Origin: a virus
Length of the DNA stretch: 32,323 nucleotides
IMG/VR virus record: IMGVR_UViG_3300038427_000074
Span: 1 to 32,323 of that record
Reading direction: 5' to 3' (one strand)
Position numbers and translations under genes: made by a program. The notes under the pieces are model-generated. The model did not search any database. It saw only the letters and a program-made list of their open reading frames with translations, and was not told where the DNA came from. This document shows, one piece after another, positions 3,407-31,972 of this stretch (position 1 is its first letter; the number at the start of each line of letters is the position of its first letter).

Positions 3407-3509
3407 TATAAATAGAATTGAAGAGTAATCTGACTGTTCGAACCAGATCAGAAACAGTAGGAGCAAATTACTGCTGTCCTCCTCATTTCTATTTATAAGG
3501 AGCAATATC
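3407..3509 (+). promoter_or_regulatory. Late promoter and structured leader of a homing endonuclease
   Basis: A plus-strand TATAAATA (3407-3414) precedes a leader of about 90 bases. Nested stems are visible: AGTAAT/ATTACT enclosing ACTGTT/AACAGT. The sequence AGGAGCAA occurs twice (3459-3466 and, as the real ribosome-binding site, 3498-3505) with CTCCT (3479-3483) between them that could pair with either copy. Confidence 0.55.
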
Positions 3510-4097
3510 ATGTATCATATCGTTTACCAAACAACAAATCTTATCAATGGAAAATTTTATATTGGTAAACATTCTACTAAAAATTTAGATGATGGATATC
3601 TCGGAACTGGATTGTTGATAAAAGAAGCTATAAAAAAATATGGTAAAGAAAACTTTCAACGAATTGTATTATATTATTGTGCTTCTTCACAAGAAGCATA
3701 TAATATAGAATCTTTAATAGTAAATAAAAACTTTATAAAACATGAGGATACTTATAATATTATTCTCGGAGGAAGTGGTTCTTTTACAGAAAAAAATTGT
3801 TCCGAAGAAACCAGAAAAAAAATGTCAGAAAGTCATAAAGGACATATTCCAACTGAAATAACAAGAAAAAAATTATCAGAAAAAGGAAAAAACAGAACTC
3901 ATTCAGAGGAAACAAAAAGAAAAATATCACAAAGTCATATGAAAATGTATCCTACATACGAAACAAGAAAAAAATTATCAGAAAGTTCTAAACATAGATT
4001 ACCTATCTCAGATGAAACTAGAAATAAATTATCAATCAGTATGAAAGGAAACAAAAACAGAAAGAGAAAGATTGATAACCTTTCTCTTTCTGTTTAA
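3510..4097 (+). CDS. GIY-YIG homing endonuclease
   Basis: A 195-residue free-standing homing endonuclease on the opposite strand to its neighbours. The N-terminal catalytic domain has VYQTTNLINGKFYIGKHS (the GIY-YIG strands) and the YLGTG, IKKYG, Glu-containing EAYNIESLIV and YNIILGG blocks. The C-terminal half is a run of repeated SEETRKKMSESHKGH-like units, the NUMOD3 DNA-binding motif found in such enzymes. It cuts DNA at a specific site so that the gene is copied into it. It ends inside a perfect terminator hairpin and is preceded by a late promoter and structured leader. Confidence 0.92.
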   Translation: MYHIVYQTTNLINGKFYIGKHSTKNLDDGYLGTGLLIKEAIKKYGKENFQRIVLYYCASSQEAYNIESLIVNKNFIKHEDTYNIILGGSGSFTEKNCSEETRKKMSESHKGHIPTEITRKKLSEKGKNRTHSEETKRKISQSHMKMYPTYETRKKLSESSKHRLPISDETRNKLSISMKGNKNRKRKIDNLSLSV

Positions 4098-4100: not shown

Positions 4101-6335
4101 TTAAAAATATTCGGTAGTATATGATGTACGAGCTATCATTTTTATTCCATTTTTTTCGTAAAAATAATCACCCTTATCATCAACGGTTAACTTATCGAAC
4201 CAATCGCCCGAAAGAAGCTTTGCAAGTTTCAAGATAGCAAAGTTGCTTCTGATTAAGATCAATTCTTTCTTGATTTCATCTCTCTCAGCAAACAAGAAAT
4301 TTCTGGTTTTGACAGATTCTTTGTTCAGATCAACTGCTTTAGCGTCAGCTTCATTCTGAACCATAAGGTATTGCTTGTGAAGAGTTTGCATACTGGCGGT
4401 CAATTTCTTGCCGTTATTGATACGTTCCAGCATCTCACTGATCTTAGGCCACGAAGAAAAACCAGCAAGGTAGAATTCCATTGTTCTGCTCTGATAACTG
4501 TCAGAATCTTCTGCTTTAGCCTTTGTGATTTCTACACCACCATAATTAAGATTCTTGTCCAGACCATGTTTCTCAAGCACTCTGATCTGTGCAACAGTGT
4601 ATTCTTTCAATGCTCCAGTTTTCTTGAGAGTATCGGTAAGAATACCATCAATCAAGTACCCAACTATCTTCTGACGAGCTTCCAGTTCAGTAGTAAGCCG
4701 AACATCTTCAAAGATATTGGCTATATCAGTTGCTTTGTTGATGTACATTCTGTTGATGATCGGGAACACAGACAGATCAATAACGACTCTGGCATACATT
4801 TTTTCGTTTATTACTGTACCTTCAATCCATTTCATATATTTTTCATCAACTTCACCTTCAGTAGGAATAAGAACTTCAATCTTCTTGATGTTCAGGTTGC
4901 CATCTTTGATAATGGTATAGTTTCGGAAGATTCCACTTTCAATTTCAGTAGGCAATCCTACTTCTTTTGCGTCCATCGGATTGATTGCAACCTTTCCAGG
5001 AACATAAACTCGAATTGAAAGGTTCATGTGCTTCTTATTGAAAACAAAATCAGAGAAAGGTACACGAATTTCGTCTTCGGTCTTTGTGAAGAGATTGAAT
5101 TCGTCTGTGGCTTTTCTGGTAATACGAGAGTAAGCTTCCAGGTTTTTACTGAACGGAATGTAATAAGCATCGATAGTCTGGAGATATGCTAGAACATCCA
5201 TTACACACTTTGCATCATCAGCAGGAAGATATCCAACAGTTGCTACTCCATCCAGCATTCGATGTTTATTGTTTATGGTTGCTTTGCGAAGCTTCTCAAT
5301 ATGAACAGCACTTTCATCGAAAGTAAAACTTGAAAGATGTGAATCAATCAAAGCTTTTTCGCCAAGATTTTTTGAAATGATATCCAGAGATTCCAATCGT
5401 CTGTTGTTGTAATAGAGATTGTATGCATATGCATAGTAGAAATTCACTACTGATGCTTGAGCTATTGCTTTATTGATATCGTCACTATTGTAAAGAATAC
5501 CTTGATAAGTGAAATTGATATCATCTTCATCTTCGCCAACAATGAAAACTTGGTTTTTTCGTTTATCAATTCGAGAAAGTTCAAAGATTCCTTCTGTCAT
5601 TTTTGTGAAGGTACGATTAAGATAAACAATATCTTTACTATGATAACTGTCTATTTTGATATCTTCGATTACAGCCTCAGAAATCTTTTCGAAGTTATGA
5701 TTGAATATGGTGAGATATTCATCGATGTTGGAACTATGAAACATGGTTCCGAATTCGGAAGTAGCGGAGAATGCTTTGAGAAGTTCCTGGTTGTAGTAGT
5801 TGCCATAACCAACTGTGTTAAAAGCAATGATTTTGCCTTTCATCTTTTCCAGTTCGATCATGCATTTACGTTCCTCTTCAGGAACACCCCAAGGAACTAC
5901 AGGCTGACCGTCTGTGAACAGAGTCACGGATACCGGAGCAAGATCACCAATCTCATCGAGAATGGTATTTACTTCCTTGAGAGGATCGGAGAAGCAAGTA
6001 CAGCCGATTACAGACCGAAGAGAATTCAAGATAGCTGTCATTTCCAGCATCTTATTTGCACCCTTCAATACTGTTCGATGTTGACCCGCTGACGAAAACC
6101 AAATGATGGTCAGAAGATCATCTTCACCGATAACTTCAATTGTCTTCTGGACATTATCGATAAGCTGGTTGATGCTATATGCCATAGAACCAGACCGATC
6201 AAGAATGTGAATATGATGAAGTTTATTGACTACCTTACTCTCAACAACTTGCTGTTCGGTTTCCTCTTTATGAGAAATAGAAACAACAACTTTCTTTTTT
6301 CCACCTACATCCAGGATGCTTTTGTAAATTGCCAT
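4101..6335 (-). CDS. Von Willebrand factor A (VWA) domain protein
   Basis: A large 744-residue protein. A complete metal-ion-dependent adhesion site is present: DRSGSM (residues 46-51), a conserved Thr in the CTCFSD segment (near 113-118) and LFTDGQP (near 140-147), separated by the alternating strands and helices of a VWA fold. The remaining 500 residues are not recognised; they contain no visible membrane segment or signal peptide, so the protein should be cytoplasmic. VWA domains mediate Mg-dependent protein binding, often with AAA+ ATPases or in structural assemblies. The ribosome-binding site is AAGAGAGGATAAAACGA. It follows a 51-residue gene driven by an early promoter, which suggests early expression and hence a host-takeover or regulatory role rather than a virion part; this is inference. 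Confidence 0.85.
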   Translation of the reverse strand: MAIYKSILDVGGKKKVVVSISHKEETEQQVVESKVVNKLHHIHILDRSGSMAYSINQLIDNVQKTIEVIGEDDLLTIIWFSSAGQHRTVLKGANKMLEMTAILNSLRSVIGCTCFSDPLKEVNTILDEIGDLAPVSVTLFTDGQPVVPWGVPEEERKCMIELEKMKGKIIAFNTVGYGNYYNQELLKAFSATSEFGTMFHSSNIDEYLTIFNHNFEKISEAVIEDIKIDSYHSKDIVYLNRTFTKMTEGIFELSRIDKRKNQVFIVGEDEDDINFTYQGILYNSDDINKAIAQASVVNFYYAYAYNLYYNNRRLESLDIISKNLGEKALIDSHLSSFTFDESAVHIEKLRKATINNKHRMLDGVATVGYLPADDAKCVMDVLAYLQTIDAYYIPFSKNLEAYSRITRKATDEFNLFTKTEDEIRVPFSDFVFNKKHMNLSIRVYVPGKVAINPMDAKEVGLPTEIESGIFRNYTIIKDGNLNIKKIEVLIPTEGEVDEKYMKWIEGTVINEKMYARVVIDLSVFPIINRMYINKATDIANIFEDVRLTTELEARQKIVGYLIDGILTDTLKKTGALKEYTVAQIRVLEKHGLDKNLNYGGVEITKAKAEDSDSYQSRTMEFYLAGFSSWPKISEMLERINNGKKLTASMQTLHKQYLMVQNEADAKAVDLNKESVKTRNFLFAERDEIKKELILIRSNFAILKLAKLLSGDWFDKLTVDDKGDYFYEKNGIKMIARTSYTTEYF

Positions 6336-6513: not shown

Positions 6514-6542
6514 ATGATACCATATCTAAATTTGAAAGTCAA
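6514..6542 (-). promoter_or_regulatory. Early-type promoter (extended -10)
   Basis: Minus strand: TTGACT (6542-6537), 17-base spacer ending ATGG, TATCAT (6519-6514). Its -35 box overlaps the stop codon of the HNH gene upstream, so the homing gene was placed right against the promoter without harming it. Confidence 0.82.
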
Positions 6543-7147
6543 GAACTATTTACAACTATCTGTTTGCATATGCTTATAAAATACTCTTGGTTAAAAGAAT
6601 TTTTCATACGATTTACATCTTTATGTACCCACTGAACATTACCTTCAACATATCCTTTCGATGAATCTATCCGATCTAATGATGCTGTTTTATCACATTG
6701 AGACTTTTTAACATATATTATCTCTATATCCATTTTACTTAATGCACATTTACCTTGCTGTTTTATATATAAATTCCATAAATATTCGGCAGTTAGGTTA
6801 TAATCTATATTTCTTTTTTCTGCACCATATCGAATTTGATACAAATATAATCCTGAAATATCACCCGTTCCATTCCATCCTGGATTATCTTTTGCTTTAC
6901 GAGATATTCCACATGAACAAGCTCTTACTCTTCCTAAATTACCCATAATGACTGTAGATTCTCCTCCACAGTCACATTTACATACCCAACATGAATTTCC
7001 ATGTTTATCTCTAACAGGATATTGTAATACTAATTTTCCTAAACGTTCTCCTGTTCTATCTTTAAACAAATTATTACCAGGAACAAAATCTGTTTTAGTT
7101 TTATCCCATTTGTATAACTTCATATCAACTTTTGTTTTATTTTTCAT
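6539..7147 (-). CDS. HNH homing endonuclease
   Basis: A 202-residue HNH-family endonuclease. The N-terminal half has a zinc-knuckle (CWVCKCDCG...CSCG) preceded by the GERLGKLV-type motif common in phage HNH proteins. The C-terminal half has the nuclease: CALSKMDI, then TASLDRIDSSKGYVEGNVQW and a final helix. The catalytic His of the first H position is replaced by Asp-containing LDRID, as often seen in this subgroup. It lies between RNR and the 51-residue gene in the same direction. Its ribosome-binding site is buried in a 16-bp hairpin that carries a late promoter in its loop. Confidence 0.88.
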   Translation of the reverse strand: MKNKTKVDMKLYKWDKTKTDFVPGNNLFKDRTGERLGKLVLQYPVRDKHGNSCWVCKCDCGGESTVIMGNLGRVRACSCGISRKAKDNPGWNGTGDISGLYLYQIRYGAEKRNIDYNLTAEYLWNLYIKQQGKCALSKMDIEIIYVKKSQCDKTASLDRIDSSKGYVEGNVQWVHKDVNRMKNSFNQEYFISICKQIVVNSS

Positions 7148-7200
7148 AAATTCTCCTCATATGATGTTGTTTCTTTTATTTATACATATGAGGAGAATTT
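7148..7200 (-). promoter_or_regulatory. Hairpin hiding the ribosome-binding site, with late promoter in its loop
   Basis: A perfect 16-bp inverted repeat (7185-7200 with 7148-7163) begins three bases past the RNR stop codon. The downstream arm contains GAGGAG, the ribosome-binding site of the HNH gene, and abuts its ATG. The 21-base loop contains TATAAATA on the minus strand (7184-7177). Read-through mRNA from RNR would fold and hide the site; a late transcript starting in the loop would lack the 5' arm. T4 uses the same logic for homing genes such as I-TevI. Confidence 0.88.
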
Positions 7201-7202
7201 GT

Positions 7203-9119
7203 TTAGATTTCACAAGAAATTCCTGTGCAACTTAATGTCTGAGCACCTTCAGTATTATCTTCCAATTCAAATTGATTCAACTCTGCGTCAAAATCTATAT
7301 TTATTTTGGTCCAAGGCTTACAATAATCATAATATTCCTCTTTAGAAATCGATTCATAGGGACTAAGAGGATAATGTGAGCCGTCATAGGGCAGAAATGC
7401 TAATCCACAAACCGCATCCCAATTCTTATAAACCCATGCTCCGACTTCAACCCACTCATCGTCTTTACATGAAATCGTAACAGAAGGATTGCCGTCACAC
7501 CAATTGTCGTTGAACATCTTCCAGTATTCAAGTTGTTCGAGTGCAGAGAAATCATCTCTGTTCAAAGAACCTCTAGGAGATTTGATAGGAAAATCGAATA
7601 CTAATGTGTTGTAATCTTCCCAAGTGCTTCCTACTTCTGGATTGCATGGAACATTCTTACTCATTAACAAATGAGCGATAGGGTCTTTTGCTGTAACTCT
7701 TACTCTACGAATATAATAATCCGAATGCCGAGCATGAATTCCACTTGAACAGTTGCATAATTGTGAAACAGTACCAGAAGGTTTTACTAATGTTACTTGT
7801 TTCGGAGCAACAATTCCAAGTTCTTTTGCAAACTCTTCAGAACATTTATGAGCAAACTTCTTCAGTTCTCTTAACATCTTGCAAGTTTTATCATTTACTT
7901 TTTTGAATAGAGGAGAATCACATACTCCGGTCAAAGAAACGCCGATCAATCTTTCTTTTTCTGCATTCTCTTTCCAAAGAGGACTAACATTTGGAAAATG
8001 AGTCAATGTGGATTGGATGCATCCTAAAAGAACTGCTGCTCTGATCTTCTCTTCTAAGTCTTCTTTAGTATCTTCAGGACGTACAACAACTTCGGTGAGG
8101 TTACAGCATTGTCTGTCCATCAAAAGAGCTTCACCACAAGGATTTGATCGTACATCACCATCCATACGATTGAACCGATCTGCTTTTTCTCTAGCAGAAA
8201 CTGTATTGTAGATTCCACGTTCTCCACTTCCTGAACGAATAAGATTCAACCATTCTTCCATGAACAATGCAGATTCTGGTTTCTCTGTATATGCAATACT
8301 GTTATTTGCCATTCTACGTTGAGGATTTTCCAACCAGAACTGTCCATCCTTGGCATGTTTCATACGATTATCAGATAGATTAGAAAAACTGATACATGCT
8401 GAACGTCTGACACCACCAACAACAACACATTCACCGACCATCGTTGCGATATCATGAACTTCTATAGAATTAAGCTTTCTGCCTCTAGCATTCTTGCAAA
8501 TTCTGATAATAAAACTCATAAGTTGTTTCAATGGTTCAGGACCAGAAGCTCTTCCACCAAAGGTTTTGAGTCTTGCACCTTTAGGACGAACTAAAGAATA
8601 ATCAAAAGTAGGAATCAATCCATTGTATATTGAATTTACACAAAAATCTACAGCTTCTTTCCATCCTAATTTTGAATCGGCTACAATCCAGGCTGTTGTT
8701 CCTACTTCTTCAAAAATTTCAGGAATTTCAGGAAGTTTGCTTACATATTGGCGTTCAACAGAGAATCCTACTCCACAACCATGCATCATCAGGTAAAGAA
8801 TTTCTCCAAATTTATCTATAGAATTCAATGCTATATAGCAACAATTGAATCCAGCAAAGTTGTTTTCTTCTAGAGCAGGACCGGCAGACCAGAGTGCTCT
8901 CATACTTCCCATAACTTGTTTATTTTTCTTTAGTTCGATTGCTTCTTTATATGCACCTAGCAAAGAAGCAGGTACTTTAGATTCAAAAAAATCACTATAT
9001 CTTTGTACTGCTTCATCCCAGGATTCTCTTCTTTTTTCTTCATCCAACCATCTTGTATATGTACGTTTTGCAATAAAATTTGAGTATGTTTCTTCAATCT
9101 TATCAGTTGTTTGTACCAT
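7203..9119 (-). CDS. nrdJ: Adenosylcobalamin-dependent ribonucleotide reductase (class II, monomeric)
   Basis: A 638-residue class II ribonucleotide reductase resembling the monomeric triphosphate reductase of lactobacilli, somewhat shorter than that roughly 740-residue enzyme. Visible signatures are GFNCCYIA (first redox cysteine), the active-site loop SNPCGEALL (radical cysteine and Glu), NLTEV, PSGTVSQL, and a C-terminal C-x4-C pair (CTGISC) that shuttles electrons from thioredoxin. It makes deoxyribonucleotides using B12, with no oxygen requirement and no small subunit. Ribosome-binding site AAAGGGAG. It follows ThyX and a zinc-ribbon gene in one operon, so the group supplies dNTPs and dTMP for replication. 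A homing gene is inserted directly after its stop. Confidence 0.92.
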   Translation of the reverse strand: MVQTTDKIEETYSNFIAKRTYTRWLDEEKRRESWDEAVQRYSDFFESKVPASLLGAYKEAIELKKNKQVMGSMRALWSAGPALEENNFAGFNCCYIALNSIDKFGEILYLMMHGCGVGFSVERQYVSKLPEIPEIFEEVGTTAWIVADSKLGWKEAVDFCVNSIYNGLIPTFDYSLVRPKGARLKTFGGRASGPEPLKQLMSFIIRICKNARGRKLNSIEVHDIATMVGECVVVGGVRRSACISFSNLSDNRMKHAKDGQFWLENPQRRMANNSIAYTEKPESALFMEEWLNLIRSGSGERGIYNTVSAREKADRFNRMDGDVRSNPCGEALLMDRQCCNLTEVVVRPEDTKEDLEEKIRAAVLLGCIQSTLTHFPNVSPLWKENAEKERLIGVSLTGVCDSPLFKKVNDKTCKMLRELKKFAHKCSEEFAKELGIVAPKQVTLVKPSGTVSQLCNCSSGIHARHSDYYIRRVRVTAKDPIAHLLMSKNVPCNPEVGSTWEDYNTLVFDFPIKSPRGSLNRDDFSALEQLEYWKMFNDNWCDGNPSVTISCKDDEWVEVGAWVYKNWDAVCGLAFLPYDGSHYPLSPYESISKEEYYDYCKPWTKINIDFDAELNQFELEDNTEGAQTLSCTGISCEI

Positions 9120-13486: not shown

Positions 13487-13771
13487 TTAAGACAATTTGG
13501 TGTACTGTTTCCGTTTAGTAGTACGAGCTTTTCTAGACTTTCCTGTTCTTCTTTTGTCAGGCTCGTTCCGCAATTCAGACATCTGTGGAATAACATCAGG
13601 TATCTCCTTTCGTTCAACTATTATAGCATCAGTTATATCATCAAATTCAAACAATAATCGTTGTGATCTTAATTGAGCTTTGACTTTATTTTTAGCTTCT
13701 TCAAGGGTTTCCGCTGGAACTCTTAATCGTTGTGGTTTGTATATTGTTACACATACTTCGAACATTTCCAT
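13487..13771 (-). CDS. Hypothetical protein with basic tail
   Basis: A 94-residue protein. The first 60 residues look like a small alpha/beta domain (MFEVCVTIYKPQRLRV..), and the last 30 are strongly basic and probably disordered (Lys, Arg, Thr-rich). It overlaps the end of the gp55-type gene (TAATG), whose Glu-rich codons provide GAGGAA as ribosome-binding site. A basic tail next to the late sigma gene could mean nucleic-acid or sigma binding, but that is speculation. Confidence 0.72.
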   Translation of the reverse strand: MEMFEVCVTIYKPQRLRVPAETLEEAKNKVKAQLRSQRLLFEFDDITDAIIVERKEIPDVIPQMSELRNEPDKRRTGKSRKARTTKRKQYTKLS

Positions 13772-14217
13772 TAGTTATGTTCCTCTTCCTCTATTACTCT
13801 GAAGTCATATTCTGGATGATTACAAAATTCTTTCTTGATATAGTTGAATTTTGTTTCGGCTAAAGTCTTTTCTTTGTTGATAATGAACTTGAAAGCTCTT
13901 TCAATTGTCTTTGAAAAGTAGTTGAATGGATCACATTTAGCAAATGCTGGATTATAGTTGTGAGCATATCTAACACAGAGATAGAGTGCTTCTGTTTTCA
14001 TTTGATCGAGATAGGTATATCCTGAAAAATTTCTTCGAGTAGCAGCATGATTTACTAGCTTAAGTATACATTCACCGATAAATTCTGTCATTTTATAATC
14101 AGGATCAACTTCTTTCTTCTTTTTCCAATCAACAAGTGCTTCATGAAACTTTACTTTATCGATGTATGTTTTCTTATACTTCTTTTTGGTGTTAAAGTTG
14201 TCTATATATCCTGTCAT
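13771..14217 (-). CDS. 55: Late-transcription sigma factor (T4 gp55-type)
   Basis: A 148-residue protein with the gp55 pattern: IDKVKFHEALVDWKK, a TEFIGECILKLVNHAATRRNFSG block, YLDQMKTEALYLCVRY and the FNYFSKTIERAFKFIINKEK segment that corresponds to sigma region 2 and contacts RNA polymerase and the -10 box. gp55-type sigmas direct RNA polymerase to TATAAATA late promoters, working with the sliding clamp gp45 and co-activator gp33; those partners are not in this window. TATAAATA motifs before several genes here fit its presence. The ribosome-binding site is GTAGGCAACAA, moderate. Confidence 0.85.
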   Translation of the reverse strand: MTGYIDNFNTKKKYKKTYIDKVKFHEALVDWKKKKEVDPDYKMTEFIGECILKLVNHAATRRNFSGYTYLDQMKTEALYLCVRYAHNYNPAFAKCDPFNYFSKTIERAFKFIINKEKTLAETKFNYIKKEFCNHPEYDFRVIEEEEHN

Positions 14218-14443: not shown

Positions 14444-14594
14444 ATTTCTTTTCCTTTAGTTTTTCAATATAAGTTTTTATAACTCTATTGTGCTTGTAAA
14501 ATACAACTCTATAATAGATATTTTTTATAGCTGTTCCTATTGTATATACAAGATTTCCCATGACTAAAAGTAAACAAAAAATAAAATCATTCAT
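14433..14594 (-). CDS. Small membrane protein (53 aa)
   Basis: A 53-residue protein with one hydrophobic segment at the N-terminus (FIFCLLLVMGNLVYTIGTAI) followed by a basic helix. The predicted topology is a single membrane span with a cytoplasmic basic tail. Its ATG overlaps the uvsW stop (TAATG), with AGGAAA upstream. Function unknown. Confidence 0.7.
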   Translation of the reverse strand: MNDFIFCLLLVMGNLVYTIGTAIKNIYYRVVFYKHNRVIKTYIEKLKEKKYVS

Positions 14595-17311
14595 TATAGA
14601 TTTCCTGTCTTTATTTGATATTGTGATAGCTTATAATCAAACTCTTGAGCAACATATATCTTAGCTCTCTCTGCGAATTGTCTTACACTATGATTAGTAT
14701 ATCGTATTCTGTTCGGTTTGTCTATTTTTATTATCAGATCATCTATCAAATCGAAAATATTTAAGTATTCCTTATCCTTATGTAATCTTAATCCTCTTCC
14801 AATTGCTTGTAATATCTTACCTTTTTTCTTGTAATTGCTTGCCATGATAATGTTATGAAGATTCTTTACGTTGATTCCTCTAGCAAATACTCCATAACTT
14901 GCAATTAGAATGATATCATTTCGTAATTCAATCAAATTTCTAATATCTTCTCGTTCACTTATATCAATATCTCCATCCAGGTAGATGATCTTCTTATCTG
15001 GAAAATATTTAGTAACAATTTCTCGAATAATATATCCATGTTTTGCTTTTTTTGTAAATAAAACTAGACTGTTACCGTTGATATTAGAAATCAATTTACA
15101 AATAAACATGTTTCTTTCAACAGATTCATGAACCAAATCCATTTCTTTGTTATATCCTACAGTAGTTTCTTCTATTTCTGCACATTTTTTAGTTTCTTTT
15201 AGATATGGTTCAACGTTTTCTTTATAATTTTTCATCTTAATTTCTTCTGGATATACTAAACGAACTAGATTCAATTTCATTTGAGAAAGTTGACCAACAT
15301 CTTGAAGAGATTTATAGGTTGAATATGTTTTTATTGGACCTAAAGCACCAACAATAGTAAACCATTCGCATGTTCCTTCGTCAGGATAACTTCCAGAGCA
15401 TCCTATCCTGGTTGATGCATTGATACATGCTTTGGTAATCATTGAAATACATTTTGCGGCAGTTGTATCTGCTTCATCACATATCAAAACATCAAATCTT
15501 GCAAATTGTTCAAGATCAGTATATGTTGATTGCCATGTTGAAAAAATAATTTTTCTATCTGAATGTCTTTCTGTTCCTCCATATACTCTATCTACTTTAA
15601 TATCTACTTCTTCCCATCCATAATTTCGGAAGTCAGATATCAATTGTTCTACAAGTTGAATTTGATTTACTATAACAACAATTTGTTTATCATATTGTTC
15701 AAACCATCTAATAATCATATATAATATAGCTGATTTTCCACTATTATGAGTTATCATTCCTCCGTTAGTAATATAAAGATTGTCTTCTACTTGAATTCCA
15801 TAATAATTTCCACTATATCCATCATATTCAACATCAAATTTACTTCTATATGGATCAATTCTGGTTAGTGATTCTTTAAAACTTCTTTTTCTGAGAATAC
15901 GAACAGGAATTTTTCTTATATTACCCATCAATAATACTTGATAATAATTTCTATCATATTTCTTGTTATATTTTGTTCTGGTTGAACATACTATGCCTAA
16001 AGATATAGATAATCGTTTAACATCATCTCTTAACTGTTTTGATTTGAACGTTAATTCATATGCCGTTCCGTTTGCTAAATGACCATCACTATCTATCAAT
16101 CCTGCCAGTACATCTAATCTATAATCTATTGAAGTTGTGAATATAGGTTCAGGGATGAATCTATCAGCACATTTTACATTTTTTTTAGAATTGCTTGAAA
16201 AAATTATACCCATTTTTTCAAATTCTTTGAATATCACGTTTCTATTTTTTCCTACTCCCTGTCCTTTGGTTCCTATACATCCTTTTATATCAAAATGTAA
16301 ATTATCTTTTGTTATTACTTCACATTCTAACATATTTGCTTGTATATATATTTCTTTTTGAGATTCTATATCTTCATTTGTAACTTGACACGAATAAGTA
16401 CTACCATCTCCTAAATACAAACCTATAAAATAAGGAGTCAGTTTTATATAACTTAAATCAGTTTCATGTTCAAAGTTCAATTCTTTATCATTATAGAAGA
16501 TGTTTGCTATATGTTTAAAAGTTTTCTTGGATTCTATATATGTTTTCACTTCCATATTTTGAATATAATGTTTATCACCTTTTGTTATAGAATATGGTTT
16601 ACTATAATCAGATCGTTTTAATGGTAAAATATGATTTTCGTTTACAGTTATACTATCTCTATTGTTTTTAGGAATGATTTTACAAAGTTTATCCTGTCCA
16701 GTAAACGTATTTAAAACTTTTTTGAACCTTCCGTCTTCTCCAAATACATATTCTCCTATTGTAATATCTTCTACTTTCTTCCATATTCCGGTATTCATCA
16801 AAATCATATCACCAGCTTTATGACAACCAGTTACTGAACCAATATTTAAGACCTTATACTTGATTGCTTCATATGCTGCCTGTAACTGGAAATCTCTCGT
16901 AACTAATGGATTACCATCATCATCTTTCAAATGAAGTCTCTGAACGAATTCTAGGAAGTCCTGGTATACAATCTCTTCTTTGTTTCTGTACGTAGAAGAG
17001 ATCGAATATCCTCCAGCTTTAGCAAACTGTGAAATTTTGAAATACAATCCGACAGGAAGATAGTTTTTATAGATATCAAAGAAGTAGATTTTTCCATTCC
17101 ATTTTCTATTTCCTTGTGTGTCTCGTTGTTTATACTTCGGAGAAAATTGATAATTAGGAGCTAGGGCAGAGAAATACTTATAAAGTTCTCTTGATATTTC
17201 ATGAGAACAGTCTACAAATAAAGTACTTTCGTTAACCTTTGATAAAACTATATCAGTCTTCAGATGATGTTTCTCCTCTACAACTTTTACAAAGAGTTTT
17301 TTCTCCATCAT
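14594..17311 (-). CDS. uvsW: UvsW-type recombination helicase, interrupted by an intein
   Basis: The precursor has about 905 residues; removing a 361-residue intein leaves about 544, near the 503 of T4 UvsW. The extein shows the UvsW N-terminal DNA-binding domain (SPKYKQRD..WNGKIYFFD), Walker A (TG-[intein]-SGKS), the DEAD-like box ICDEAD, GCSGSYPDEG, the ASYGVFARGINVKNLHN motif V and the IGRGLRLH motif VI. UvsW unwinds R-loops and branched DNA and helps switch T4 to recombination-primed replication. The start is uncertain: ATG 17311 has weak upstream support, whereas CTG 17263, nine bases after AGAGGAG, aligns with T4's first residue. It follows uvsY and two zinc microproteins. Confidence 0.92.
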   Translation of the reverse strand: MMEKKLFVKVVEEKHHLKTDIVLSKVNESTLFVDCSHEISRELYKYFSALAPNYQFSPKYKQRDTQGNRKWNGKIYFFDIYKNYLPVGLYFKISQFAKAGGYSISSTYRNKEEIVYQDFLEFVQRLHLKDDDGNPLVTRDFQLQAAYEAIKYKVLNIGSVTGCHKAGDMILMNTGIWKKVEDITIGEYVFGEDGRFKKVLNTFTGQDKLCKIIPKNNRDSITVNENHILPLKRSDYSKPYSITKGDKHYIQNMEVKTYIESKKTFKHIANIFYNDKELNFEHETDLSYIKLTPYFIGLYLGDGSTYSCQVTNEDIESQKEIYIQANMLECEVITKDNLHFDIKGCIGTKGQGVGKNRNVIFKEFEKMGIIFSSNSKKNVKCADRFIPEPIFTTSIDYRLDVLAGLIDSDGHLANGTAYELTFKSKQLRDDVKRLSISLGIVCSTRTKYNKKYDRNYYQVLLMGNIRKIPVRILRKRSFKESLTRIDPYRSKFDVEYDGYSGNYYGIQVEDNLYITNGGMITHNSGKSAILYMIIRWFEQYDKQIVVIVNQIQLVEQLISDFRNYGWEEVDIKVDRVYGGTERHSDRKIIFSTWQSTYTDLEQFARFDVLICDEADTTAAKCISMITKACINASTRIGCSGSYPDEGTCEWFTIVGALGPIKTYSTYKSLQDVGQLSQMKLNLVRLVYPEEIKMKNYKENVEPYLKETKKCAEIEETTVGYNKEMDLVHESVERNMFICKLISNINGNSLVLFTKKAKHGYIIREIVTKYFPDKKIIYLDGDIDISEREDIRNLIELRNDIILIASYGVFARGINVKNLHNIIMASNYKKKGKILQAIGRGLRLHKDKEYLNIFDLIDDLIIKIDKPNRIRYTNHSVRQFAERAKIYVAQEFDYKLSQYQIKTGNL
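15743..16825 (-). other. Intein with LAGLIDADG endonuclease domain
   Basis: A 361-residue in-frame insert starts with Cys (CHKAGDMILMNTG, block A) and ends ITHN directly before Ser of the extein (block G and +1 nucleophile). Block B is TVNENHILPL with its catalytic His; block F is YYGIQVEDNLYITNGGM. Between them lie two LAGLIDADG motifs: YFIGLYLGDGS and VLAGLIDSDGH. All residues needed for self-splicing and for DNA cleavage appear present. The insertion is between GSVTG and SGKS, that is, inside the Walker A loop, so the helicase is inactive until splicing. Confidence 0.95.
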
Positions 17312-17360
17312 ATTGTAAATCTTCACTATCCCCACACCAATCACAACCAAACATTATCAT
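17253..17360 (-). CDS. Zinc-ribbon microprotein (35 aa)
   Basis: A 35-residue protein (starts MIMFGCDWCGDSED) with CDWC and CKSC pairs spaced as a minimal zinc ribbon. It has a strong ribosome-binding site (GGGGAG six bases before ATG), and its ATG overlaps the stop of the preceding 47-residue gene. It overlaps the 5' end of uvsW; if uvsW starts at CTG 17263 the overlap is only about 11 bases. Function unknown. Confidence 0.72.
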   Translation of the reverse strand: MIMFGCDWCGDSEDLQYDGEKTLCKSCRGETSSED

Positions 17361-19714: not shown

Positions 19715-20844
19715 ACGAAATTTTAAACGAAGTTGAATGTTGTGAAGTAACCGACAGACTTGAACTTGCTGTTGTGAAACGAGTAAAAAGTCTTGAACTT
19801 ATTCCAAACAAAGATCGGATTGAACTGGTGCATCTTGATGATTGTGGATTCACTTTCATTTGTGAGAAAGGACATCAAGTAGGCGATCTTGTTGTCTATG
19901 TAAAATATGATAGTGTACTTCCTAAGATCGAACTGTTCGATTTTATGGCAGACTTCAAATATAGAGTGAAAGCAAAATCATTCACCGAGAAAGATGATGA
20001 TGGAGTAGTTGTAAAGAAAATCTATTCTCAAGGAATTATACTTCCTCTTCATTTAGTAGAAATGTTTGTTGTATCAAAATGTGCATCAGAAGGTTTTATG
20101 GACATTCAAGAAACAGCATCTAAATTTATTGAAGGATCAGACCTTACAGAAGCACTTGGAGTAACAAAATACATTCCTCCAGTTATGACAGGAGCAGGTT
20201 CTGGTTTTGGTGAAATGAGATGTAAAGGAACTTTTCCTACTCATATTTTATCTAAGACAGACGAAACTACTCTTGCTTCTAAGACCAGAGCATTAGAAGA
20301 ACTTAGAGGCAAAGCGGTATATATTACCTTGAAGATTGAAGGAAGTTCAGGAACATCTTATGTTGATGATGCTACAAGAGAAATGATTGTATGTTCCAGA
20401 AACAATATGATTTCAGAAACTGAAACTTGTAAATTCTGGATTGCTGCAAGAAAATATAATTTGAGTGAAATTCTTTTTAAAGAACCGTGGTTAGCTCTTC
20501 AGTGGGAACTTTATGGAAGCGGAATTCAAAAGAACAAACTTAAGATTGATGGTGTTGATCTTGCGATTTTTAATATGATTAACAAACATAATCGTAAAAG
20601 ATTGTCATATTATAATATGCTCGATTTGAGAGATATGTATAATCTTCCTCTTGTTCCGTTTATAGATCGTATTGAAAATTTTGATATGTCATTCAATGAA
20701 CTCCAGGAACTTGCTGATGTTCAGAAATATGCTTCTGGAGAGGATGCAGAAGGAATTGTAATTCGTCCTGTAGAACCTTTCTATTCTAATGTTCTGAAAG
20801 AAGATTGGAGCGTTAAGGTAATAAACAGAAACTACCATTTATGA
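19711..20844 (+). CDS. RNA ligase, DRB0094 (Rnl5) type
   Basis: A 377-residue protein combining an N-terminal OB-like domain (residues about 20-150, VKRVKSLELIPNKDRIELV...) with a nucleotidyltransferase domain. The nucleotidyl-Lys motif is TLKIEGSS (Lys208); motif IV is EGIVIRP and motif V WSVKVIN at the very C-terminus. This order, with the OB domain first, matches the Deinococcus DRB0094-type RNA ligases, which seal 3'-OH/5'-PO4 nicks in RNA. The last 32 bases overlap a convergent homing gene, so the final residues after motif V may have been altered by that insertion. Confidence 0.88.
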   Translation: MNEILNEVECCEVTDRLELAVVKRVKSLELIPNKDRIELVHLDDCGFTFICEKGHQVGDLVVYVKYDSVLPKIELFDFMADFKYRVKAKSFTEKDDDGVVVKKIYSQGIILPLHLVEMFVVSKCASEGFMDIQETASKFIEGSDLTEALGVTKYIPPVMTGAGSGFGEMRCKGTFPTHILSKTDETTLASKTRALEELRGKAVYITLKIEGSSGTSYVDDATREMIVCSRNNMISETETCKFWIAARKYNLSEILFKEPWLALQWELYGSGIQKNKLKIDGVDLAIFNMINKHNRKRLSYYNMLDLRDMYNLPLVPFIDRIENFDMSFNELQELADVQKYASGEDAEGIVIRPVEPFYSNVLKEDWSVKVINRNYHL

Positions 20845-21532
20845 TAGTTCGACAGTTGTTATTGTGATATCTCGTACAAGTACTTATAGACATAGTTTTA
20901 CCACAATAAATACATGTCGATGTACGGGAAAGTGCCAGAGATATTTTCTGTTTAGATTCGATAGAATGTGTACTTCCTATACGTTTAGATGTTCTGTTTT
21001 GTATATGTTCTAAAGTTTGTTTTTTACCAGCATTATTTTTACCACCTTTACAATATCGACCTTTTACCAATTGAGGTTGTTTACCTTCGGTATATTGTTT
21101 AGCCATAGTTTTAGAATGTTTTTGTTTTCGTTCATCGGTCCATGATAATTTTTGTTTCTTTGATATTTTTTCTTTAAATTCTATATTTTGCCATCGTGCT
21201 TTGGTTTTGTTGGATAGTATTTTTCTAGTTGTATTATCTAACAATCCAAAACCTTTACGTTTATAGTAACATACTTTATTAATACATAAAGGACTGTTCA
21301 AATATATTTCTATCAATTGTTGTTCGAATATGAAAGCATCTTCTTTTACCAAAGTTTCTAGTAAAATTTCTTTAGAAACTTGTATTCGATTGTTAATTTT
21401 AAGTTTAACTGTTTTAGAACTGGAAAAATATTTTACTAGAAGGTCTTTATCAGGAGCACATATGCTTCCACGATATCCATAGTAAAAAGTACCATCGCTA
21501 AATGTTAATTTATAAACGTACCAATGTTTCAT
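20813..21532 (-). CDS. GIY-YIG homing endonuclease with zinc-finger tail
   Basis: A 239-residue protein on the opposite strand to its neighbours. The N-terminus reads WYVYKLTFSDGTFYYGYRG, the GIY-YIG core, with a conserved Glu in FEQQLIEIYL. The middle is basic (NUMOD-like), and the C-terminus has a CIYCG...H...C zinc finger. It lies between two RNA ligase genes and overlaps the end of the first. A late promoter TATAAATA stands 20 bases before its AAAAGGAT ribosome-binding site, but I see no masking hairpin here. Confidence 0.87.
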   Translation of the reverse strand: MKHWYVYKLTFSDGTFYYGYRGSICAPDKDLLVKYFSSSKTVKLKINNRIQVSKEILLETLVKEDAFIFEQQLIEIYLNSPLCINKVCYYKRKGFGLLDNTTRKILSNKTKARWQNIEFKEKISKKQKLSWTDERKQKHSKTMAKQYTEGKQPQLVKGRYCKGGKNNAGKKQTLEHIQNRTSKRIGSTHSIESKQKISLALSRTSTCIYCGKTMSISTCTRYHNNNCRTIINGSFCLLP

Positions 21533-21551: not shown

Positions 21552-21559
21552 TATTTATA
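21552..21559 (-). promoter_or_regulatory. Late promoter of the GIY-YIG gene
   Basis: TATAAATA on the minus strand, 20 bases upstream of the start codon at 21532, in an AT-rich leader. Consistent with late expression of the homing gene. Confidence 0.6.
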
Positions 21560-24156: not shown

Positions 24157-24207
24157 TAGACAAATTCCTAAACTTATGCTATTCTAAGTGTAAGTTTAGG
24201 AATTTTT
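24157..24207 (+). promoter_or_regulatory. Promoter embedded in an intrinsic terminator
   Basis: A perfect 15-bp stem (24162-24176 with 24191-24205) followed by T-rich sequence makes a strong terminator for upstream transcripts. Superimposed on it is a promoter: TAGACA (24157-24162), 17-base spacer ending ATGC, TATTCT (24180-24185), its -10 lying in the 14-base loop. Transcription would start at the 3' arm, so the new transcript cannot form the stem. Confidence 0.82.
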
Positions 24208-24220
24208 ATTTGGAGGATAA

Positions 24221-24580
24221 ATGAATTATACAACTGTATGTAAACATGGAGTAGACGGATTTGAATTTCACTGTTCAGAATGTTGTGCAGACGAAATTCG
24301 TAATCTTGAAATGGAACTCGATTCTTTAAAGAATCCTGCATACTGTGAAAAGTGTGGTTCGTGTGGAGAAGAAGGATGCTGTTCTCCAGGCAAATGTAAA
24401 ACTGTACAAGGACTTTACTGTGATAGTAACGTCAAATCCTGGGAAGATATGAACAACGAAGTTGATAAATATTATCAGCTAAAAGATAAACTAAAAGAAT
24501 ATCTTTCTCTTGCTTCCTGTGACGGTAGACCTATCAGAAAGCAATTAAGAAAAGAGTTACAGGAGTTGATTGATGAATGA
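24221..24580 (+). CDS. Cys-rich protein (119 aa)
   Basis: A 119-residue protein with about 13 cysteines in its first 70 residues: CKHG, HCSECC, CEKCGSCGEEGCC, and C-x3-C further on, indicating two or more zinc sites. A coiled-coil-like helical C-terminus follows. Ribosome-binding site TGGAGGATAA. First gene behind the embedded promoter. No family recognised. Confidence 0.78.
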   Translation: MNYTTVCKHGVDGFEFHCSECCADEIRNLEMELDSLKNPAYCEKCGSCGEEGCCSPGKCKTVQGLYCDSNVKSWEDMNNEVDKYYQLKDKLKEYLSLASCDGRPIRKQLRKELQELIDE

Positions 24581-24816: not shown

Positions 24817-25587
24817 TTATAGCAAATGTTTAATTATATGATGTTTTCTTTTTAAGAAAAATAGAGCATCTTTATATAGATATTGAAGAAAAGCAACTTT
24901 ATCTCCTAAAATAATAAAATTAGAACGACTTCCTTCTTTGTATGTTTTATTATGTATACTAAAAGGAAACTCTATTCTATTTGCTATAAAATTCCAATTT
25001 TGGTTGATATTGGACGTGATTTTTATTTCTGGAGATCGATTTTTTCTTATATAAAAACAACCATCACCATCGATTATACCACGTAAGAAATGATTGAATA
25101 GATAAGCAGAAACAGCAGACGAATCAATTCTAAACTTTAGATTGATAAAATTATCATAAACTTCTTTAGAATTTAGATTCCAATGTGCGGTTTTAGAAAT
25201 TTTTTTGGTCTGTTTATTAAAAGTAGTATAGATTTTATACGATCCTCCAAAATAAGATACTATAAAATCTAAAATTTCTTTATCTTTTGGATGCATACTA
25301 ATGACTAAACTTTTAATACTTGCAATATTTTTTCGTGGAGCATTCATCAAACAACCATCTGCCCACAAAAAACCAAAGATATATGCTTTTTCTTGTGTAT
25401 CGATAGTTTCGAAATAATCTATTATAGGATGTTTTCTAGGAGAAAAATTTTGAAGTTTGTTTCGTTCAGTTAAAGTGCATTGTTTACATTTTGGTTTGTA
25501 ATTATAAATTTTTTTAAGAGTTGTACTATACTTGAATTGTCGTTCTTTATTGCAAGTTTCACATAAACAAGTTTTCCATATCATCAT
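24817..25587 (-). CDS. LAGLIDADG-type homing endonuclease
   Basis: A 256-residue protein on the strand opposite its neighbours. An N-terminal zinc finger (CLCETC...CKQC) precedes two LAGLIDADG motifs: YIFGFLWADGCL (near residue 72) and FLRGIIDGDGCFYI (near residue 168), each with its catalytic Asp. Two motifs in one chain make a monomeric enzyme. It sits immediately before the gp47-like gene, sharing with it a divergent control region that contains two late promoters. AAAGGAGAAATTATA is the ribosome-binding site. Confidence 0.88.
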   Translation of the reverse strand: MMIWKTCLCETCNKERQFKYSTTLKKIYNYKPKCKQCTLTERNKLQNFSPRKHPIIDYFETIDTQEKAYIFGFLWADGCLMNAPRKNIASIKSLVISMHPKDKEILDFIVSYFGGSYKIYTTFNKQTKKISKTAHWNLNSKEVYDNFINLKFRIDSSAVSAYLFNHFLRGIIDGDGCFYIRKNRSPEIKITSNINQNWNFIANRIEFPFSIHNKTYKEGSRSNFIILGDKVAFLQYLYKDALFFLKRKHHIIKHLL

Positions 25588-25593
25588 TATAAT

Positions 25594-25648
25594 TTCTCCT
25601 TTGTTTTATTTATACTTTTTGGAGATTTTATAAATAACTTTAGGAGAA
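25594..25648. promoter_or_regulatory. Symmetrical divergent late-promoter switch
   Basis: TTCTCCT (25594-25600) and AGGAGAA (25642-25648) form a 7-bp inverted repeat. Each arm covers the ribosome-binding site of one of the two divergent genes. The loop holds TATAAATA on the minus strand (25614-25607) for the homing gene and TATAAATA on the plus strand (25629-25636) for the gp47-like gene. A shorter TCTCC/GGAGA pairing (25595-25599 with 25621-25625) is also possible. Confidence 0.68.
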
Positions 25649-31228: not shown

Positions 31229-31293
31229 CGTTTCGTTTTTACCTAGTATCGAACTTTTATAAATAAAATAAAAGCTAGATACTAGGAGAAACG
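31229..31293 (+). promoter_or_regulatory. Hairpin hiding the ribosome-binding site, with late promoter in its loop
   Basis: Perfect 9-bp stem CCTAGTATC/GATACTAGG (31242-31250 with 31278-31286), plus an outer CGTTTC/GAAACG (31229-31234 with 31288-31293). The 3' arm contains AGG of the AGGAG ribosome-binding site. TATAAATA (31258-31265) lies in the loop. Same design as at 7148-7200. Confidence 0.87.
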
Positions 31294-31294
31294 A

Positions 31295-31972
31295 ATGAAA
31301 AAAGTTTATACTGTTTATAAAACAACAAATAAAGTAAACGGGAAGTATTATATAGGAGTTCATAAAACTTCTGATCTGTATGATGATTATCTTGGTTCTG
31401 GAAAATATCTTAAACGAGCAATTGAAAAATATGGTATAGAAAATTTTGAGAAAGAAATTATTGATATTTTCGATTCACCTGAAGAAGCATATACATTAGA
31501 AAAAATTTTGGTTACATTTGAATTGATAGAAACAGGACAAATATATAATTTAACAGAAGGTGGAAGAGGCAAAGGATTTGAATATGCTAACAAAGAAGGA
31601 ATGAATTATGGTGGAGAAGAGAAAAGAAAATTAGGTTCTATTAACGGCAAAAAGAAATTTCTTGATTTATATTATAACAATATTAACTTTAGAACTAAAC
31701 ATAAGCAACATCTAAAACAAATTGGTATGAAAGGTAATATAAATGTAAACATCAAATATCCCAATGGCACATTTAAAGATAAATTACATACAGAAACAAC
31801 AAAACGAAAAATAGGAATGTCTAATTCAATTCATCAACAAGGAAAAGGAAATTCTCAATACGGAACTTGTTGGATATACAACGAAAGTACAAAAGAGAAT
31901 AAAAAAATTAAGAAAGAAGATTTAGATTTTTGGATAGAATCGTTGTGGATAAAAGGTAGAAAAATTAAATAA
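31295..31972 (+). CDS. GIY-YIG homing endonuclease in the tRNA cluster
   Basis: A 225-residue protein with TVYKTTNKVNGKYYIGVHKT (GIY-YIG), YLGSGKYLKRAIEKYG, the catalytic-Glu segment EEAYTLEKILV and YNLTEGG. Closely similar in its nuclease domain to the GIY-YIG gene at 3510. The C-terminus is basic with short NUMOD3-like pieces (HTETTKRKIGMSNSIH). It sits between tRNA-Leu(TAG) and tRNA-Leu(TAA), as T4-like phages carry homing genes in tRNA clusters. Expression is expected to be late because of the hairpin described upstream. Confidence 0.92.
   Translation: MKKVYTVYKTTNKVNGKYYIGVHKTSDLYDDYLGSGKYLKRAIEKYGIENFEKEIIDIFDSPEEAYTLEKILVTFELIETGQIYNLTEGGRGKGFEYANKEGMNYGGEEKRKLGSINGKKKFLDLYYNNINFRTKHKQHLKQIGMKGNINVNIKYPNGTFKDKLHTETTKRKIGMSNSIHQQGKGNSQYGTCWIYNESTKENKKIKKEDLDFWIESLWIKGRKIK

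Follow-up and report, generated by a model that had tools for sequence, protein, structure and literature searches.

The stretch at 7148-7200 of the viral DNA analysed here (IMG/VR record IMGVR_UViG_3300038427_000074, the whole 32,323 nucleotides of which are referred to as the window) is, as judged from sequence, probably a leader that regulates a homing gene inserted behind nrdJ, and would act as an early-off/late-on switch of the type known from T4. RNA reading through from the early or middle transcription unit of nrdJ would fold into a 16-bp hairpin that buries the ribosome-binding site (SD) of an HNH endonuclease gene, and the gene would be off. Late in infection, RNA polymerase with a gp55 sigma factor would use the motif TATAAATA in the hairpin loop and start at about 7171, a 5' end that we assume by analogy with T4 late promoters. 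In this late RNA the SD would be free because the 5' arm is missing, and the endonuclease would be made.

All parts of this arrangement lie on the minus strand. The upstream gene, nrdJ (7203-9119), encodes a class II (B12) ribonucleotide reductase with the Pfam domains RNR barrel, RNR_Alpha and RNR-II_ins_dom. Its stop codon (TAA, 7205-7203) is followed by AC and then, from the third base onward, by the 5' arm of the hairpin (7185-7200, 16 nt, AAATTCTCCTCATATG), which contains CTCCT as an anti-SD. The 21-nt loop (7164-7184, TATAAATAAAAGAAACAACAT) and the 3' arm (7148-7163, CATATGAGGAGAATTT) come next, and the ATG (7147) of the HNH homing-type endonuclease gene (6539-7147) immediately after that arm. 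The gene is recognised by its matches to PHROG 3322 (endonuclease, 6.9e-24) and PHROG 3118 (HNH, 3.4e-15); a Pfam search with its protein gave no match, and its relatives in IMG/VR are only 30-40% identical.

The initial annotation had described a perfect 16-bp hairpin three bases past the nrdJ stop which hides the ribosome-binding site of the HNH gene, and both observations hold. The two 16-nt arms are 100% complementary at a spacing of 21 nt, and a perfect repeat of at least 16 bp with a loop of up to 60 nt occurred in none of 150 Markov-shuffled windows. The minimum free energy of 7130-7260, folded on the plus strand, has a z score of -4.6. The 3' arm contains the SD, GAGGAG (7158-7153), whose computed unpaired probability in minus-strand folds is 0.00 in the read-through RNA; the AUG of the HNH gene, however, is mostly unpaired in that RNA, which counts against the switch. 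That late RNA starting in the loop would lose the 5' arm had also been proposed; in RNA starting at about 7171 the SD, partly re-paired, is unpaired with a probability of 0.64, and the presence of gp55 and the enrichment of the promoter motif, described below, lend this proposal further support.

Comparison with other phages at the nrdJ site draws on a small set. Protein searches with nrdJ found two close relatives, L012 and L013, and two distant ones only, so that covariation at this site rests on two sequences. In L012 (contig G001) neither an endonuclease nor a hairpin is found behind nrdJ. In L013 (contig G002), the one relative with a leader at the site, AAAATCTCCTCATAAG, a loop of ATAAATAATACACAAGTT, CTTATGAGGAGATTTT and an ATG occupy the same place as the window hairpin, and the gene that follows encodes a GIY-YIG enzyme, as against HNH in the window. 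The two leaders align over their full length with 45 of 59 columns identical, and at two base pairs the L013 stem differs from that of the window with both sides changed, so that pairing is compensated. From these two cases, either the leader may have been kept while the endonuclease was swapped, or leaders may have arisen twice. A scan for the pattern TCTCCTCAT..ATGAGGAGA, chosen after the window and L013 had been seen, yielded 23 stretches, two of which, L142 and L145 (the latter being L013), have stems of at least 15 bp. Both carry [TG]ATAAATA in the loop, as does the window, and in both a GIY-YIG gene follows, an assignment made by eye in the case of L142.

The motif noticed earlier in the 21-base loop is TATAAATA at 7184-7177 (minus strand), a putative gp55-type late promoter found by motif search and enrichment. 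A gene for a gp55-type late sigma factor is present in the window (13771-14217, minus strand; PHROG 234, 7.7e-26) and also in the relative G001. The window contains 16 copies of TATAAATA, compared with 5.5 expected by chance because of its AT-rich composition, and eight of the 16 lie upstream of ORFs (1.1 expected). In G001 the corresponding figure is 40 of 69 (5.3 expected), and the genes preceded by the motif include those for the head scaffold, protease, major head and tail tube proteins. These enrichments emerged when 8-mers upstream of ORFs were counted without a preset motif; TATAAATA was one of the most enriched in the window and ranked close to the top in G001. In G002 it is not enriched (1 of 13 upstream, 1.3 expected); instead GATAAATA lies upstream in 7 of 10 cases (1.0 expected), with p = 5e-5 when the nrdJ site is left out, which suggests that GATAAATA is the late-promoter variant of that phage. 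No gp55 was detected in this 44-kb fragment, so that the case for GATAAATA as a late promoter is its enrichment itself. It is GATAAATA that the L013 hairpin loop carries, and the match between each loop motif and the enriched motif of its own genome is the best evidence for use as a promoter.

The same motif recurs at other homing genes of the window. Five of the six free-standing homing genes have it upstream, compared with 4 of 59 other ORFs (p = 9e-5). A second hairpin of the same design (31237-31291, plus strand), with AGGAG in its 3' arm and TATAAATA (31258-31265) spanning arm and loop, precedes a SegB-like GIY-YIG gene in a tRNA cluster (31295-31972, plus strand; 41% identical to T4 SegB); its SD goes from 0.01 unpaired in read-through RNA to 0.62 in late RNA. 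A third, weaker hairpin (25588-25632, minus strand; arms 25632-25621 and 25599-25588), with TATAAATA at 25614-25607 in the loop, stands before a LAGLIDADG homing endonuclease gene (24817-25587, minus strand; Pfam LAGLIDADG), and here the change is from 0.19 to 0.96. At a GIY-YIG gene (20813-21532, minus strand) TATAAATA lies 20 nt before the start (21552-21559), and the SD changes from 0.06 to 0.76. The initial annotation had drawn attention to this design on an HNH gene beside a class II RNR; the association is confirmed, but the design is not confined to the HNH gene. Among the matches listed, CTCCT..TATAAATA..AGGAG..ATG hairpins are also found in other phages before genes without a homing look, so that the design is not specific to homing. 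L020, L086, L029 and others have CTCCT..TATAAATA..AGGAG hairpins of this kind before non-homing genes, and the products of such genes include repeated unnamed proteins of 242 and 271 aa (both again among the matches listed). The window also has a perfect 15-bp hairpin with a 14-nt loop and no TATAAATA (24162-24205), upstream of a small ORF at 24221. As a separate matter, the gene for a UvsW-like DNA helicase (14594-17350) seems to have an intein inserted where its GxGKS motif lies (CHKAGDMILMNTG...MITHN).

A hairpin combined with a late promoter has been described for I-TevI, I-TevII, I-TevIII, segB and Aeh1 mobE (PMC2988022, PMC3014915), and the likeness to I-TevI that had been put forward for the window is borne out by this literature. 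In I-TevI (of the T4 td intron), I-TevII and I-TevIII, as in the reading favoured here, a stable RNA structure hides the SD in early and middle read-through RNA, and a late promoter inside the structure gives rise to RNA without the 5' arm (PMC2988022, PMC3014915). These three are intron-encoded, whereas the HNH gene of the window stands on its own, downstream of a class II RNR gene. Aeh1 mobE is likewise an HNH gene at an RNR locus with a hairpin sequestering its ribosome-binding site and a late promoter (PMC2988022), although mobE resides in a class I nrdA locus and the window gene at nrdJ. T4 segB resembles the window gene at 31295: it encodes a GIY-YIG protein, lies in a tRNA cluster and has a predicted late promoter and hairpin. 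In segB the motif is CATAAATA, placed in the stem's 5' strand, and the start codon too is within the stem, whereas the TATAAATA of the window gene overlaps its loop; as a control, the same calculation on T4 segB took the SD from 0.004 to 0.20 unpaired. The leaders of T4 gene e and soc also provide early-off, late-on control of late genes (PMC2988022, PMC3014915), but these are not mobile genes, unlike the homing genes of the window.

It had been proposed that read-through RNA would go untranslated. The SD is indeed computed to be paired in this RNA, but a ribosome terminating on nrdJ could open the hairpin, which is so close to the stop codon that this RNA may be translated to some extent. The main and serious rival to the hairpin switch, translational coupling to nrdJ, follows from this: ribosomes terminating at the nrdJ stop would open the hairpin, endonuclease would be made in proportion to nrdJ translation, and the loop motif would be secondary or idle. 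The CTCCT of the 5' arm lies 8-12 nt past the nrdJ stop in the window and 9-13 nt past it in L013. A ribosome halted on the stop codon would sit over the 5' arm and might thereby release the SD; with at least 12 nt past the stop masked, the SD is unpaired with a probability of 0.64, equal to that in late RNA. However, such coupling leaves the late-promoter motif of the loop unexplained, including the fact that it reads GATAAATA in the very genome whose enriched form is GATAAATA; and at the SegB-like gene, which shares the design, the upstream neighbour is a tRNA, so that there is no upstream translation to couple to. We therefore consider coupling unlikely as the main function of the hairpin. 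Much less probable is that the palindrome serves as a DNA operator for the endonuclease, the RNA hairpin being a by-product. I-TevI does bind an operator that overlaps its own late promoter, an autorepression that offers a precedent (PMC2988022), but similar arms precede an unrelated GIY-YIG protein in L013, and complementarity of the arms to the SD is unneeded in an operator. Least credible, in spite of the position of the hairpin three bases past the stop, is a transcription terminator or a protector of the nrdJ mRNA 3' end, since the stem is AT-rich and the open HNH gene, whose SD is part of the 3' arm, starts right behind it; an intrinsic terminator was rejected because the stem is not GC-rich and the minus strand after it reads ATGAAAAATAAAAC, with no U tract.

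With the hairpin switch retained as the probable reading at nrdJ, a different leader in the window is the more novel lead. A 91-nt RNA at 3407-3497 (plus strand) forms a three-way junction before a GIY-YIG/NUMOD3 homing endonuclease gene (3510-4097, plus strand; Pfam and PHROG). Its first bases are TATAAATA, which is the 5' strand of the closing stem, and its last, directly ahead of the SD, are TATTTATA. G001 has five further copies, and all six, counting that of the window, share the fold. Scanning viral contigs with a pattern turned up 57 stretches; with an RNA model built from 13 sequences, about 30 distinct copies scored well, and copies are also found among L175-L231. Across the proposed pairs, 96.4% of cells are paired, and covariation is 0.577, compared with at most 0.099 in slid controls. 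The end of the GIY-YIG gene also has a 19-nt inverted repeat (95%, 4055-4095) that adjoins the converging gene at 4101-6335 and is possibly a bidirectional terminator.

In the phage contig G003 (IMGVR_UViG_3300002895_000002, 213,116 bp), which encodes gp55, a single strand carries all of the 16 distinct copies of this leader, and behind each of them the start of a GIY-YIG or HNH-type protein is recognised by eye, three of these in short reading frames; the load of homing genes in this contig is very heavy. Elsewhere the proteins downstream are GIY-YIG, HNH, treble-clef/DUF723-type and, in one case, TnpB. For several more, that in L176 among them, no family was matched, and their reading as nucleases is by eye only. 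The leader before the TnpB gene (OrfB_IS605, 7.9e-27) is at L218:4187-4279 on the minus strand. Rfam covariance models gave no relevant match to 3407-3497, and the RNA model found none in T4, Aeh1, Va1, Melnitz, five other named phages or Aeromonas phage 25. The seg43 gene of that last phage may be compared in having a stable structure just upstream of its ribosome-binding site and not over it (PMC2988022). Bacterial and archaeal genomes produced 58 pattern hits, of which one matched the model marginally and none convincingly, and no paper describing the leader was found in the open-access full-text literature. There is good support for the three-way-junction RNA being both real and undescribed.

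A further feature of this leader is a copy of its SD. AGGAGCAA occurs twice, at 3459-3466 in P3 and at 3498-3505 as the true SD. Over 32 sequences the longest stretch common to the P3 loop and the sequence just after the closing stem averages 6.8 nt, compared with 4.3 nt with the pairs permuted, and 0 of 5000 permutations reached the observed value; the 16 sequences of G003, six of which are shared with the larger set, give 7.3 against 5.1 (0 of 5000). A search within the leader for a cis partner found no segment complementary to the SD region beyond chance. A partner in trans, for instance an antisense late RNA, would explain why the two sites are identical and not complementary; our guess is that such an RNA starts from the opposite-strand TATAAATA at the other end of the leader and pairs with the SD. 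We give an even chance to a broader reading in which the homing genes of this phage group have interchangeable late-promoter leaders, moving between unrelated nuclease families, one of them being an undescribed three-way junction with a closing stem formed by the promoter, an SD repeat in P3 and perhaps a role as an antisense target.

New at nrdJ are the class II RNR neighbour and a leader common to two families of endonuclease, together with a putative promoter whose sequence varies with the genome: in both nrdJ-site hairpins it matches the late motif of the respective phage. A probable case of T4-type early-off/late-on control is thereby seen in an uncultivated phage group. Because HNH and GIY-YIG genes at one nrdJ site follow alignable hairpins, the comparison suggests that the leader, and not the endonuclease, is the conserved unit. 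The three-way junction adds an apparently undescribed class of RNA, associated with homing genes from several families, and thereby makes it testable how a phage genome keeps its selfish nucleases quiet.
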